In this document: in pieces, positions 5,349-57,671 of the stretch | Layout: each line of letters starts with the position of its first letter | How positions within the stretch are numbered: position 1 is the first letter of the stretch | Source: Bacteroidota bacterium | Lineage (GTDB): Bacteria > Bacteroidota > Bacteroidia > UKL13-3 | Assembly (NCBI GenBank): GCA_947457395.1 | Contig: CANGVA010000003.1 | Location: 142,825 to 206,824, forward strand | Direction: 5' to 3' | Length of the DNA stretch: 64,000 bases | The notes under the pieces: generated by a model | What the model was told of the DNA's origin: nothing | The model's input: the letters and a program-made list of their open reading frames with translations, nothing else | Database searches by the model: none | Made by a program: the position numbers and the translations under genes

Positions 5349-6605
5349 ATGCAGATTGACAAATTAATTCAGAAGTACGAAAGTAAGCAACCCGAGATTG
5401 TGTTTGAATGGAAGGACAGTGAAACAGAAGCAGAAGGATGGGTAGTCATTAACTCTTTACGCAACGGAAGTGCCGGTGGAGGCACGCGCATGCGTAAGGG
5501 TTTGAATAAAGATGAAGTAATTTCTTTGGCTAAAACCATGGAAATTAAATTTACCGTTTCGGGCCCCCCAATTGGTGGCGCCAAATCAGGAATTAATTTT
5601 GATCCTGCCGATCCGCGTAAAAAAGGTGTATTGGAACGCTGGTATAAAGCTGTAATGCCTTTGCTTAAAACATACTATGGTACAGGTGGCGATTTAAACG
5701 TGGATGAAATACATGAAGTAATACCTATTACAGAAAAGTATGGGTTGTTACATCCACAGGAAGGCACGGCTGTTGGTCATTTTCAACCCGATGAAGCCTC
5801 AAAACAACGCATGATCAAAAACCTGCGTGAAGGTGTTTCCAAAGTGCTGGATGATGCCCGCTTCTCTCCCGACACAACCAAGAAATATGTAGTAGCTGAC
5901 ATGATTACCGGCTGGGGTGTGGCAGAAGCAGTTCGTCATTTTTATGATTTCTGGGGGCCAAATTTTGCCTACAAGCGTGCCATTATTCAGGGATGGGGAA
6001 ATGTGGCAGCAGCAGCTGCATATTATCTATCTCAAATGAATGTGATGATTGTGGGTATTATCGACAGAGAAGGCGGATTAATTAACCCCAAAGGATTTTC
6101 AAAAGAAGAAATCAAACAATTGTTTGTGGAGCGAGATGGCAATAAACTGTCAAAAGATACCTGTAAGAAAATGGGTCTGGAGTTTATTGCGTATGACGAT
6201 ATCAATCAAAAAGTATGGAGCGTAGGTGCAGAAATATTTGTTCCTGCAGCAGCCTCACGCATGCTTACACAAGCCCAATTGGATGCAATGGTGGCTAATG
6301 ATTTAGAAGTGATTTCCTGTGGAGCCAATGTGCCTTTTGCCGATAAAGAAATTTTTCTTGGCTCTATAGGTAACAGTGCCGATGACCAAGTGGCGGTTAT
6401 ACCGGATTTTATTGCCAATTGCGGAATGGCACGTGTATTTGCCTATTGCATGAGTGAAGAATTTCAGTTGAGTGATGAAGAAATTTTTAAGGATGCATCT
6501 AAAACTATCAGACAGGCATTGATGCGTCTAAATCAATTTAATCCAAAGCGTACAGGGTTACTTAAAAAGGGATTGGAAATGAGTTTGGTGAATTTAGTTA
6601 AATAA
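5349..6605 (+). CDS. Glu/Leu/Phe/Val dehydrogenase family enzyme
   Basis: A 418-residue NAD(P)-dependent amino acid dehydrogenase catalysing reversible oxidative deamination to a 2-oxo acid. The catalytic-lysine motif PPIGGAKSGI has its lysine near residue 79. The dinucleotide-binding segment IQGWGNVAAAAAYYL lies in the second half, and SCGANVPF follows. The length fits the glutamate dehydrogenase-like branch found in Bacteroidota, but substrate choice cannot be read from the sequence by eye. The start at 5349 lies 59 bases after anmK. Confidence 0.85.
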   Translation: MQIDKLIQKYESKQPEIVFEWKDSETEAEGWVVINSLRNGSAGGGTRMRKGLNKDEVISLAKTMEIKFTVSGPPIGGAKSGINFDPADPRKKGVLERWYKAVMPLLKTYYGTGGDLNVDEIHEVIPITEKYGLLHPQEGTAVGHFQPDEASKQRMIKNLREGVSKVLDDARFSPDTTKKYVVADMITGWGVAEAVRHFYDFWGPNFAYKRAIIQGWGNVAAAAAYYLSQMNVMIVGIIDREGGLINPKGFSKEEIKQLFVERDGNKLSKDTCKKMGLEFIAYDDINQKVWSVGAEIFVPAAASRMLTQAQLDAMVANDLEVISCGANVPFADKEIFLGSIGNSADDQVAVIPDFIANCGMARVFAYCMSEEFQLSDEEIFKDASKTIRQALMRLNQFNPKRTGLLKKGLEMSLVNLVK

Positions 6606-6613
6606 CCTAAGGG

Positions 6614-6634
6614 TGTTGGGTATTAGGTGTTGGG
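6614..6634 (+). repeat. Heptamer repeat, left flank of four-helix-bundle gene
   Basis: Three tandem heptamers read TGTTGGG, TATTAGG and TGTTGGG, fitting TRTTRGG. A matching set in the opposite orientation lies beyond the four-helix-bundle gene at 7076-7110, so the gene is bracketed by degenerate inverted repeats. The upstream dehydrogenase stop is only 8 bases away. Confidence 0.7.
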
Positions 6635-6675
6635 CTTTGAAAATGTTTATTGAGAGTTGTTATAAGTAAATCTTG

Positions 6676-7050
6676 ATGAGAGATTTTAGGAAACTAAACA
6701 TATGGACTGACTCTATGGCTTTGGTTGAGCTTGTTTATCAAATACTAAAGTTACTGCCGGACAGCGAGAAGTTTAGTATGCAATTGCAAATGCAGAGATC
6801 TACAATTTCTATACCCTCCAATATTGCTGAAGGATGCAGCAGATCAAGTGAATTGGACTTCAAGAGATTTCTTGAAATTGCAATAGGCTCGACATTTGAA
6901 TTGGAAACACAGGTTTTATTGGCAGTAAGAATTGGTTATTTTACTGAACAAAAGACTGAGCCTGTATTAGCTAAAATTAATCAGGTTCAAAAACAATTGA
7001 ATGCTTTCATATCATCCATAAAGAATAGAGTTAAAAAAACAGCTAAATAA
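6676..7050 (+). CDS. Four-helix-bundle protein (23S rRNA intervening-sequence/S23 family)
   Basis: A 124-residue, mostly helical protein. The N-terminal pattern MRDFRKLNIWTDSMALVELV and the central STISIPSNIAEGCSR with FKRFLEIA are the recognisable core of the S23/IVP four-helix-bundle family. Members are encoded in intervening sequences of 23S rRNA genes or as free-standing intergenic genes in Bacteroidota; the Avd accessory protein of diversity-generating retroelements shares the fold. The biochemical role is unknown, though nucleic acid binding is likely. ATG 6676 is preferred to the TTG at 6673. The gene is flanked by inverted heptamer repeats and separates the dehydrogenase from kynU, so it looks like an insertion. 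Confidence 0.85.
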   Translation: MRDFRKLNIWTDSMALVELVYQILKLLPDSEKFSMQLQMQRSTISIPSNIAEGCSRSSELDFKRFLEIAIGSTFELETQVLLAVRIGYFTEQKTEPVLAKINQVQKQLNAFISSIKNRVKKTAK

Positions 7051-7075
7051 TAATGTTAATTTTGAGATAATTTAA

Positions 7076-7110
7076 CCAAACACCTAATCCCCAAGACCCA
7101 ATACCTATAG
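7076..7110 (-). repeat. Heptamer repeat, right flank of four-helix-bundle gene
   Basis: On the minus strand the heptamers read TATTGGG, TCTTGGG, GATTAGG and TGTTTGG (7103 down to 7076), preceded by CTATAGG. They match the TRTTRGG pattern on the left flank but in inverted orientation. They end 4 bases before the kynU start codon. Confidence 0.7.
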
Positions 7111-7113
7111 CAG

Positions 7114-8382
7114 ATGATACAATTTCAAAATACCCTCTCCTTCGCCCAACAGTTAGATAAGGAAGACTCCTTGTCTCGATTTCGTGATGCGTTTTATCTG
7201 CTAAAAAAGAATGATAAGCATGTAATATACCTCTGCGGAAATTCCTTGGGTTTGCAACCCAAATCGGTTAAAGCGGCTATCGAACAAGAGCTGAAAGACT
7301 GGGCAGAGTTAGGCGTTGAGGGGCATTTTGATGGCAAAAATCCCTGGATGTATTACCATCATTTCCTTACAGAAAATGCAGCTGCAGTGGTAGGGGCCAA
7401 ACCGGTAGAAGTAGTGGTAATGAATAATCTTACCGCTAACTTACATTTAATGATGGTGAGTTTTTACAGGCCAACGAAAACCCGATATAAAATTATGATG
7501 GAGGTCTCGGCTTTCCCTAGTGATCAGTATGCCATGGAAACGCAGGCCCGCTTTCATGGATTGGATCCTGATGATGCAATCATTGAACTTACCCCGCGTG
7601 CAGGCGAGTATACGTTACGCACCGAAGATATCATTGCCAAAATAAATGCACATAAAGATGATTTGGCAATTATAATGATGGGTGGGGTAAACTATTATAC
7701 AGGTCAGGCATTTGATATGAAAGCCATTACCGAAGCGGCACATGCAGTTGGTGCCAATGTGGGTTTTGATTGTGCGCATGCTGCCGGTAATTTGCATTTG
7801 CAATTGCACGATTGGAATGTTGATTTTGCCGTTTGGTGTACGTATAAGTATTTAAACTCAGGTCCGGGTGGCACCAGCGGTGTATTTGTGCATGAGCGCC
7901 ACGCCAATAATAAAGATTTGCCTCGTTTTGCCGGCTGGTGGGGCCATGATGAGAAAGAACGTTTTCAAATGAAAAAGGGATTTAAGCCCATGCAAGGTGC
8001 TGCAGGCTGGCAATTAAGCAATGCGCAAATTTTTCCAATGGCTATTCATAAAGCTTCACTTGAATTGTTTGCGCAGGCTGGAATGGAGAATCTGAGAAAG
8101 AAGAGTGAAAAACTAACCGGATATCTGGAGTTTATATTAAAAGATTATCAGGAGCATTTAACGGTTATTACACCGGCCAATCCTGCAGAAAGGGGTTGTC
8201 AGCTATCCATTATTGTAAAACAAAACGGCAAAAAATTGTTTGACTATTTGGTGGAGCACAATGTATTGCCCGATTGGCGTGAACCGGATGTCATCAGAAT
8301 GAGTCCGGTGCCTCTGTATAATACATTCGAAGAGGTATATCAGATTGGTCAGATTTTGAAAAAGTATGTTGAAATTAATTAG
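7114..8382 (+). CDS. kynU: Kynureninase
   Basis: A 422-residue PLP enzyme cleaving 3-hydroxykynurenine (or kynurenine) to 3-hydroxyanthranilate (or anthranilate) plus alanine. The PLP-lysine motif WCTYKYLNSGPGG places the Schiff-base lysine at K245. Other family features are YLCGNSLGLQPK near the N-terminus, GVNYYTGQAFD and VGFDCAHAAGNLHL. The length matches bacterial kynureninases. It lies 29 bases upstream of kmo, so the two make a kynurenine branch that could feed de novo NAD synthesis through quinolinate. The heptamer repeat just before the start may sit in its leader. Confidence 0.95.
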   Translation: MIQFQNTLSFAQQLDKEDSLSRFRDAFYLLKKNDKHVIYLCGNSLGLQPKSVKAAIEQELKDWAELGVEGHFDGKNPWMYYHHFLTENAAAVVGAKPVEVVVMNNLTANLHLMMVSFYRPTKTRYKIMMEVSAFPSDQYAMETQARFHGLDPDDAIIELTPRAGEYTLRTEDIIAKINAHKDDLAIIMMGGVNYYTGQAFDMKAITEAAHAVGANVGFDCAHAAGNLHLQLHDWNVDFAVWCTYKYLNSGPGGTSGVFVHERHANNKDLPRFAGWWGHDEKERFQMKKGFKPMQGAAGWQLSNAQIFPMAIHKASLELFAQAGMENLRKKSEKLTGYLEFILKDYQEHLTVITPANPAERGCQLSIIVKQNGKKLFDYLVEHNVLPDWREPDVIRMSPVPLYNTFEEVYQIGQILKKYVEIN

Positions 8383-36127: not shown

Positions 36128-36586
36128 TTATTGGTTCTTAGTTCTTAGTTTATCTAAAAGGTTATTTAGTGTTTTTGCTTCAGCTACCTTCAATGAGCCC
36201 ATGAGATTTTCAATATCATCTCGTTCTTTATCTATGGTTTCAAGCAGGTTTAATCCAGCTTCTGTTATCTTTACATCAACCTGTCTCCTGTCATTGGAAC
36301 AAGTAGTTCTGCTCACCAGGCCTTTTAGTTTCAATTTGTCTATCAACCTGGAAGCATTCGACATTTTATCGAGCATCCGTTCTTGCACCAGCGAAACAGA
36401 TGTAGCCTTTGGATATTGGCCACGTAGGATGCGCAACACATTGTATTGTTCCGGAGATAAATCATACCGCTTAAAAAAACGTACCTGGTTTGCCTGCAGC
36501 CATCCGCTTGTATACAGCAAATTCACAATCAGCTTTTCATGCTCTGACCGAAATTTTTTCTGTTGTATGGCAGTTCCTATATCCAT
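36128..36586 (-). CDS. MarR-family transcriptional regulator
   Basis: A 152-residue winged-helix regulator. FKRYDLSPEQYNVLRILRG, SVSLVQERMLDKMSNASRLIDKL (recognition helix region) and VDVKITEAGLNLLETID fit MarR. It is the first gene of a two-gene operon with YceI and likely represses it and itself; the effector is unknown. The 79 bases upstream to the SDR gene stop have no gene and would hold the promoter and operator. Confidence 0.92.
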   Translation of the reverse strand: MDIGTAIQQKKFRSEHEKLIVNLLYTSGWLQANQVRFFKRYDLSPEQYNVLRILRGQYPKATSVSLVQERMLDKMSNASRLIDKLKLKGLVSRTTCSNDRRQVDVKITEAGLNLLETIDKERDDIENLMGSLKVAEAKTLNNLLDKLRTKNQ

Positions 36587-56498: not shown

Positions 56499-57470
56499 GT
56501 GGATTGGAAAAACATACATATAGATGCAACAACAACATTACTCCTGCAGCGTCTGGATGATAAACTGCAACACATTAAACAGGTAAGGCCTTTACCTGCT
56601 GCTGCCCTTGCACGCATTAAAGAAGGCCTATCGCTGGAGTGGACATACAATAGTAATAGCATAGAGGGTAATACCCTTACCCTGCAGGAAACCAAACTGG
56701 TATTGCAAGACGGGATGACGGTGAAAGGAAAATCCTTGCGAGAACATTTTGAAACCGTAAACCACCATGATGCCGTTGCATATATTGAATCTGTTGCACA
56801 AGCCGCTAAACCCATTGCAGAGTATGATGTGCTTCATACCCACGCTTTGGTATTAGATAAGATTGAAAAAGATTTTAGCGGGCGTTTTAGAAACGCTGGT
56901 GTGCGCATTACCGGTGCCAACTTTACACCACCCAATGCCCGCAAGGTTTATGATTTGGTGCATGAGCTGATGCATTGGGTAAATCAGGAATCAGGGTACC
57001 TGCATTGCCTGGTGCGTGCTACCGTTTTTCATCACCGCTTTGTTTGGATACATCCTTTTTTTGATGGCAATGGCCGCACCGTGCGCTTGCTGTTTAATCT
57101 GCTATTAATGAAGGAGGGTTATCCGCCTGCTATTATCCTTCGCAATGACCGTAAAAAATACTACGATGCACTGAACAAAGCCAATGCCGGTGATTATAGC
57201 AAATTGTTGCTGCTCACATGCCAGGCTATGGAGCGCAGCCTCGATATTTACCTAAGCAATCTGGATGATGATGCAGAGGATTATAAACCCATTACCTCCA
57301 TTGTTGAGGAAAGTGCAATGCCATACGGCTACGGCAAAGAATACATTAGCTTACTTGCCAGAAGAGGTGTGATTGATGCCTACAAAGAGGGGCGTGTTTG
57401 GTATACTACAGAGAAGGCGATTCATGCTTATGTGAAAGGAAGAAGGAGGAAGAGGAGATTGAACGGTTAG
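56499..57470 (+). CDS. Fic-family protein (class II, with inhibitory motif)
   Basis: A 323-residue protein of the Fic AMPylase type. The active site HPFFDGNGRTVR starts at H185, and the N-terminal inhibitory motif SNSIEGN (S52, E56, G57) marks it as class II. A C-terminal winged-helix-like part (about 265-310: SIVEESAMPYGYGKEYISLL) precedes a basic tail ending RRKRRLNG. Fic proteins mostly transfer AMP to target hydroxyls; the target is unknown here. The start is GTG 56499. The last codons and the TAG at 57468-57470 fall inside the octamer repeat array. Confidence 0.88.
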   Translation: MDWKNIHIDATTTLLLQRLDDKLQHIKQVRPLPAAALARIKEGLSLEWTYNSNSIEGNTLTLQETKLVLQDGMTVKGKSLREHFETVNHHDAVAYIESVAQAAKPIAEYDVLHTHALVLDKIEKDFSGRFRNAGVRITGANFTPPNARKVYDLVHELMHWVNQESGYLHCLVRATVFHHRFVWIHPFFDGNGRTVRLLFNLLLMKEGYPPAIILRNDRKKYYDALNKANAGDYSKLLLLTCQAMERSLDIYLSNLDDDAEDYKPITSIVEESAMPYGYGKEYISLLARRGVIDAYKEGRVWYTTEKAIHAYVKGRRRKRRLNG

Positions 57471-57608
57471 AAGGTTGGAAGATTAGAAGATTGAAAGATT
57501 GGGAGGTTGAAAGATTAGAAGATTGAAAGATTGGGAGGTTGAAAGATTAGAAGGTTGGAAGATTAGAAGATTGAAAGATTGGGAGGTTGAAAGATTAGAA
57601 GGTTGGAA
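57457..57608 (+). repeat. Degenerate octamer array, consensus GRTTRRRA
   Basis: Eighteen consecutive octamers from 57465 to 57608 all fit G-R-T-T-R-R-R-A without one slip; GATTGAAC at 57457-57464 is an imperfect nineteenth unit. With A=GATTAGAA, B=GATTGAAA, C=GATTGGGA, D=GGTTGAAA, E=GGTTGGAA and F=GGTTAGAA, the order is FE ABCD ABCD AE ABCD AE, so 32-base superunits recur. The strand is purine-rich. No CRISPR-like spacers are seen. The remaining bases to 57671 hold nothing recognised. Confidence 0.9.
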
Positions 57609-57671
57609 GATGGATGTTTGAAGTTGAGTTCTATGCAGGCAGAATGTATGGTGCATTACCTGTGAGTCTTT

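Follow-up and report, generated by a model that had tools for sequence, protein, structure and literature searches.

S23 genes between inward-facing heptamer arrays: a probable REPIN/RAYT-like mobile element with a four-helix-bundle partner protein

This report concerns a 64,000-nucleotide (nt) stretch of DNA from a Bacteroidota bacterium (contig CANGVA010000003.1 of assembly GCA_947457395.1), here called the window, and a small gene of the S23 (23S_rRNA_IVP) family that lies in it between two sets of short repeats. The unit at 6611–7103 is probably one copy of a mobile element, in which an S23 gene is enclosed by two inward-facing, G-rich, element-specific heptamer arrays. Judged by comparison of related sequences, the arrays and the gene are one unit, present or absent at the same junction, where different units replace each other; on the same basis the arrays also occur as short hairpins without a gene, and array numbers are higher where a genome has an S23 gene. 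Because of this unit structure, the turnover, the empty sites, the gene-less hairpins and a copy number that follows S23, we favour a mobile element with non-autonomous derivatives, and consider it likely that the element resembles the REPIN/RAYT systems, with S23 as the partner protein by which it would be mobilised.

The gene (6676–7050, plus strand) is read here from the ATG at 6676, whereas the open reading frame (ORF) tool started at the TTG at 6673, and encodes 124–125 amino acids (aa). Its product belongs to the S23 family on the strength of matches to PF05635 (E=1.4e-33; 115.7 bits against a cut-off of 33.8) and TIGR02436 (E=3.5e-32; 110.9 against 24). The left arm (6611–6634, plus strand) contains, at 6614–6634, the three strict tandem TRTTRGG units described in the original prediction, with their G-rich strand directed into the element, and the right arm (7076–7103, minus strand) contains four degenerate heptamers complementary to the left arm. 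The 'four or five' units earlier counted on the right stand if degenerate copies are admitted and fall to one, at 7097–7103, if strict copies are required, as the other strict minus-strand unit nearby (7145–7151) falls within kynU, the next gene. Over 24 nt (6611–6634 and 7076–7099) the arms are 88% complementary. No longer inverted repeat that reaches 85% complementarity was present in the 1.2 kb examined, and in the predicted RNA fold of 6600–7115 the arms pair at the base (z=-4.3) as a stem around the S23 ORF. Three-unit TRTTRGG arrays with up to three mismatches occur three times in the 64 kb, every one of them at the S23 gene, when 0.03 would be expected. Lone heptamers are not enriched in the window (33 versus 42.7 expected), so that the signal is the tandem inverted arrangement and not the heptamer itself.

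S23 genes were gathered regardless of their flanks and located with a purpose-built profile, the sources being the genome of the window; 58 genomes from its family and class, of which 54 gave a match; 80 further loci from the same listing; plasmids; 80 named contig loci, which were the best of 371 relatives found for a Nostoc S23 protein; and 119 genomes (54 with a match) of the family of Lysobacteraceae bacterium NML95-0200, which includes Xanthomonas. A tblastn search of phages gave no match. In a first set of 127 genes out of 131, the four left out being short, the self-matching of the 150-nt flanks stands out solely at lags 7, 8 and their multiples, with periods 7 and 14 dominant. At a score of at least 14, arrays were found at lag 7 in 33.9% and at lag 8 in 6.3% of the 254 flanks, while the lag-7 controls gave 0 for dinucleotide shuffles and 0.4% for 252 windows lying 450–600 nt away. 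A second set of 73 loci out of 80, seven being left out for too little flank, gave lag-7 arrays in 68/146 flanks versus 0/142 controls. When the two flanks of each gene were compared, the match was inverted in 92 and direct in 28 of the 127 genes of the first set (mismatched pairs, 3.5%), and inverted in 55 and direct in 7 of the 73 loci of the second.

The combined set holds 243 distinct S23 genes from about ten phyla (at least 85 aa, 200 nt of flank, duplicates removed), 176 of which have a period-7 array (score of at least 10) in at least one 200-nt flank, compared with 5 of 480 distant windows. Repeats had been anticipated around other free-standing S23 genes, and they are there at most of them, with a period of 7 and sometimes 8, far beyond Bacteroidota. 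At 96 loci arrays lie on both sides, and in 64 of these the units are identical or differ by one mismatch once one side is reverse-complemented (3.4% for mismatched pairs); the strand that reads inward has more G than C in 131/147 upstream and 114/125 downstream arrays. TRTTRGG, earlier put forward as the heptamer type, is ruled out as one fixed motif for the whole family, every locus having its own unit, and 167 different units were counted, among them GCGAATA in Bradyrhizobium/Rhodopseudomonas and GGGAGTA in Nostoc. By a stricter control, the 200 nt downstream of other long open frames at the S23 loci, lag-7 arrays were present at 22/156 ends, versus 272/486 S23 flanks; the same control gave 0/34 in the window and 3/55 in loci around relatives of the dehydrogenase upstream of the window gene. 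Nothing supported an origin of the array-less S23 genes as insertions in rRNA: Rfam was searched with 40 of the 48 loci without arrays, and not with the 195 that bear them, and gave no match. In Chloroflexota, two S23 loci (L175 and L185) have arrays in both orientations on one side, as if an element had inserted into an element.

Gene and arrays appear to move together. Among pairs of S23 genes at non-homologous sites, the fraction that share arrays rises with protein identity, from 0.65% below 35% identity to 3.4% at 50–60%, 13% at 60–70% and 39% at 70% or more; for all such pairs of at least 60% identity, arrays are shared in 39/239, while permutation gave a mean of 3.9 and a maximum of 12 in 500. 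Across phyla, with labels assigned by hand from record titles, the sharing of units is moderate (15/110 pairs versus a within-phylum null of 5.1, p=0.009). Sharing alone does not prove that S23 recognises the arrays.

Turnover at one junction was examined in 55 pairs of loci in which both flanking proteins are at least 90% identical. S23 is less than 60% identical in 11 of the 55, and in 11/11 of these the arrays are unrelated, while arrays are shared in 38 of the 44 pairs whose S23 proteins are at least 60% identical. The window junction is among the 11. Here the host gene upstream (5349–6605, plus strand) encodes an ELFV (Glu/Leu/Phe/Val) dehydrogenase, whose stop lies 5 nt before the start of the left arm, and the one downstream (7114–8382, plus strand) is the kynureninase gene kynU (TIGR01814, E=2e-140). 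A genome of the same genus has flanks that are 97 and 99% identical, an S23 protein that is 56% identical and arrays of another family. When this junction was read by eye in further relatives, it held arrays with the remains of a broken S23 gene in one (G002) and arrays with no gene in another (G009). An apparent inversion of the element between the dehydrogenase and kynU in locus L030 of another genome was wrong, the loci being given on the contig plus strand.

Empty and filled versions of one junction are best seen in Bradyrhizobium, and support the earlier suggestion of a small mobile unit with repeat ends. S23 was found in 11 of the 98 genomes sampled, in all 11 at nuoC–nuoD, with a second gene in genome G276. 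Of the empty nuoC–nuoD junctions, 19 were examined base by base, and 19/19 are without an array; in these, the two genes either overlap or are separated by no more than about 20 nt. In the filled copies the final nuoC codons are replaced, the stop comes from an array unit or an adjacent base, and a short linker precedes the nuoD start. At loci L325–L335 it is often the array unit that gives the upstream stop, and the linker before the downstream start has a ribosome-binding-like sequence. At some empty sites the end of the nuoC target resembles the heptamer, so that microhomology may guide insertion, an observation that concerns this one site. A tree of nuoC/D was made from 30 of the 98 genomes and, being built on the genes adjoining the element, does not give independent evidence. 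The 11 carriers do not group together in it, and in each of six sister pairs picked from it by eye the carrier has more arrays.

Three-unit arrays of GCGARTRG number a median of 82 per genome in the Bradyrhizobium carriers versus 12 in the others, about sevenfold (p=1.4e-6, 98 genomes), and the reversed pattern gave one match over all 98. In G062, a Bradyrhizobium genome with one S23 gene, 24 array clusters include 9 inward pairs of 50–454 nt and 0 outward pairs, one inward pair enclosing S23 and 8 being gene-less. At one hairpin site, 30 loci were examined; inverted arrays are present in 22 and a different repeat in 1, the remaining 7 being empty. Locus L369 bears a different palindromic repeat at the intergenic spot where relatives have the Bradyrhizobium heptamer hairpin, and locus L317, counted as one-armed, was found on inspection to have a degenerate second arm. 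In the Lysobacteraceae/Xanthomonas family, GGGAATY arrays are present in 31/54 genomes with S23 versus 9/65 without (Fisher p=6e-7, not corrected for kinship), and the arms at S23 loci L299, L301, L303 and L316, beside accB–accC, are GGGAATC/GGGAATG (the genes being assigned by families at L299 and by eye at the others).

A mechanism may be sketched from these observations. S23 would bind its own heptamer array, most likely as a folded RNA hairpin or a single strand, since it shares the fold of Avd, which is one of the subunits in the reverse-transcriptase ribonucleoproteins of diversity-generating retroelements (DGRs). Elements in operon junctions would be transcribed along with the operon, their paired arms probably allowing RNase III to cut out the S23 message, as in the intervening sequences (IVSs) of 23S rRNA, and with the help of bound S23 the hairpin could be copied to further intergenic positions by a polymerase or recombinase of the host. 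The mode of working would be like that of REPIN/RAYT, with a four-helix bundle in place of the tyrosine transposase.

Several points weigh against this picture. Direct binding of the heptamers by S23 is putative, and no target-site duplication, excision intermediate or recombinase motif was seen. In Bradyrhizobium, S23 and the filled junction occur in one and the same set of 11 genomes, which leaves gain inseparable from loss with recombination, and the surveyed loci are phylogenetically non-independent. Arrays are enriched at S23 genes but are not exclusive to them, as the 22/156 other gene ends attest, and 48/243 S23 genes have no lag-7 or lag-8 array by the threshold used. Finally, arrays persist without S23, since they are present in genomes in which it was not detected, namely the 9/65 of the Lysobacteraceae/Xanthomonas family and nearly all of Bradyrhizobium.

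The protein itself bears on the strongest of the alternatives, which holds that S23 is a passenger, or a factor for copy number or stability, and that the arrays are moved by another enzyme, such as a reverse transcriptase or a transposase of the RAYT-like or IS200/IS605 kind. The AlphaFold model of the window protein is a confident four-helix bundle (predicted local distance difference test score, pLDDT, 96.6), whose structural matches are first two solved S23 structures (best PDB entry 2gsc; Z 20.7 and 17.3) and then Avd at Z of about 15 (4dwl, Z 15.1, root-mean-square deviation 1.5 over 109; Avd in the DGR ribonucleoprotein 8ub7, Z 14.9); pectin methylesterase inhibitors, copper storage proteins and designed bundles were set aside as common helical bundles. 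One solved S23 structure, XCC0516, is a homopentameric ring according to PMC4990558. S23 is under purifying selection (median dN/dS, the ratio of non-synonymous to synonymous change, 0.08 for 49 usable of 90 pairs), and among the 243 proteins Q38, S45, E52 and E75 are conserved at or near 100% and N49 at 96%; these invariant polar residues suggest an active or nucleic-acid-binding site. A passenger role would agree with the want of a known nuclease motif in S23, with the arrays in genomes without it and with the Avd fold, which suggests a role accessory to a reverse transcriptase. Against it, no other gene is annotated between S23 and the arms in the annotated loci examined, and the link of array to S23 holds over many phyla; we regard this account as unlikely while taking it seriously.

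The genomic setting bears on a second alternative, that the paired arms are an RNA-processing or regulatory stem, cut by RNase III and bound by S23, which tunes the expression of S23 or of its operon, mobility being ancient or incidental. Co-directional genes flank 187 of 236 classified copies, and 166 of these 187 have the orientation of their neighbours, a rough count based on open frames of at least 110 codons, with antisense frames picked in some G+C-rich loci (L213, L316, L291); this bias hints at an S23 gene that relies on transcription by the host. Junctions assigned by family search are sufB–sufC (L001), the parts of a split metH, the nuoC side, accB–accC, guaB–guaA, the carA side and sdhA–sdhB, and by record annotation nrdB–nrdA and cas6–cas4. 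Locus L220 had been read as sufB–sufC, as L182 had been at first, but its families are an ABC substrate-binding protein and an ATPase, and suf is claimed for L001 only. In two cyanobacterial plasmid loci (L056 and L059), S23 elements with the unrelated heptamers AGCTTTT and GGTGACA lie at the same cas6–cas4 junction of CRISPR operons. S23 genes are listed as CRISPR-associated in PMC3936711 and PMC10910872, a listing that such siting may explain. The pairing of the arms in the predicted fold, the cutting of the 23S IVS stem by RNase III (PMC4990558) and the purifying selection on S23 are also in keeping with an RNA device. Such a device would not account for presence and absence at one junction, for replacement there by unrelated units or for the many S23-less hairpins at other sites, and we think it improbable.

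A third possibility is that the arrays are host repeats outside the element, which serve as landing sites into which S23 genes insert. Arrays are indeed common without S23, and one junction can take different S23 genes. The empty junctions, however, are free of arrays (all 19 at nuoC–nuoD and the 7 of 30 loci at the hairpin site), the two sides are inverted, whereas insertion into a tandem array would leave them direct, and similar S23 genes at different sites share units, so this explanation is largely refuted and very unlikely. In favour of chance or low-complexity intergenic sequence, the units are short and degenerate and 14% of other gene ends in S23 loci also score, but solely lags 7, 8 and multiples stand out, dinucleotide shuffles give 0 at lag 7 and the matching is inverted, and this reading can be dismissed with near certainty.

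The probable mobile element shares features with several known systems. The IVSs in the 23S rRNA of Coxiella and Leptospira encode the same protein family in a unit of about 430 nt with inverted ends that pair into a stem, which RNase III cuts, and the Coxiella IVS has tandem GACAGAT heptamers upstream of its S23 ORF, in 2–3 copies depending on the strain (PMC4990558). In that source the IVS, an insertion in rRNA, is treated as an isolated case whose protein is probably not made. The elements described here differ in lying in operon junctions, in having heptamers peculiar to each locus on either side, in purifying selection on their protein and in hairpin copies that lack the gene. The window copy, between the dehydrogenase gene and kynU, is not within an rRNA gene, and because of this location the system is not an rRNA IVS; the Coxiella IVS looks like a member of the element class that landed in rRNA.

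In REPIN/RAYT systems too, a trans-acting gene is flanked by its own type of repeat and accompanied by many short inverted pairs of that repeat, which form hairpins outside genes, repeat type and gene going together (PMC3116915). Dispersed inverted hairpin pairs are present in G062, a likeness of arrangement only. The gene between the arms is a PF05635 four-helix bundle and not a Y1 tyrosine transposase, and the repeats are tandem 7-mers and not REP palindromes of 20–40 bp; because the tyrosine transposase is absent, the system is not RAYT. Avd of the DGRs has the same fold and weak profile similarity (bAvd, E=1.6e-4), but the window S23 falls below the Avd cut-offs (22.6 versus 40 bits for PF22296, 22.4 versus 80 for NF033474), and its neighbours are the dehydrogenase and kyn genes.

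The arms of the window are of the same kind as the orphan heptamer repeats, which are intergenic tandem 7-mers, often in convergent pairs; the cyanobacterial repeats known as STRR are a further example. The likeness extends to the period, the intergenic position, the G-rich strand and the GGGAATC/G arrays at S23 genes of the Lysobacteraceae/Xanthomonas family. Orphan arrays have been described as GGGAATC in Xanthomonas, with 70–75 convergent pairs per genome (PMC4692102), and as TAACTGA in Beggiatoaceae (PMC4679880). According to PMC6344855, no other tandem repeats are as abundant between the genes of prokaryotes as heptamers, and nothing hints at what they do. The passages searched in these papers name no partner gene and no S23. 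No general tie of S23 genes to heptamer arrays was found in the literature searched, outside which lay most subscription papers and bioRxiv, and novelty is to that extent provisional. Because it fits no family tested, we regard the system as a whole as categorically new, its parts (S23 genes, IVSs and heptamer repeats) being known.

Other repeats were noticed in the window and its genome. The proposed kinship with the GRTTRRRA octamers at 57.5 kb was not upheld, as 0/243 S23 genes have two tandem GRTTRRRR units within 300 nt, and none carries the octamer unit of that array; octamer arrays of other kinds do occur at some S23 genes. The array itself (57459–57611) is long, with units GATTGAAA/GATTRGAA in a 48-bp higher-order unit (Tandem Repeats Finder score 229), and similar octamers occur elsewhere in the same genome (L037, L040, L053), once opposite a heptamer arm. 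A short GTTCTTA heptamer array adjoins a gene start at 36134–36150, its unit being the same as that of the arrays of S23 locus L005. At L047 (G000:C18:36615-36735), in the same genome, there are about six copies of a 21-bp tandem of three heptamer-like units, with no S23 gene seen beside it.

S23 has had a solved structure since 2006 (2gsc) and no function, and the heptamers have no known function; joining the two gives each a partner. That many S23 genes across bacteria lie between matching inward-facing arrays suggests that the widespread heptamer repeats stem from one family of mobile elements, as its ends and its relics, and S23 genes listed as CRISPR-associated are recast as elements lodged in operons, as also in suf, met, nuo, acc, gua, car, sdh and nrd. 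Most broadly, and as a reading that we think somewhat less likely than not, S23 proteins may be the trans-acting factors of a new and near-universal class of bacterial mobile elements. Each would recognise its own heptamer array and place copies of inward-inverted arrays at operon junctions, whether or not the S23 gene goes along, and the route might be an RNA hairpin and a borrowed reverse transcriptase, at which the Avd fold hints; heptamer repeats, including those of cyanobacteria and Xanthomonas, 23S IVSs and 'CRISPR-associated' S23 genes would then be forms of one class.
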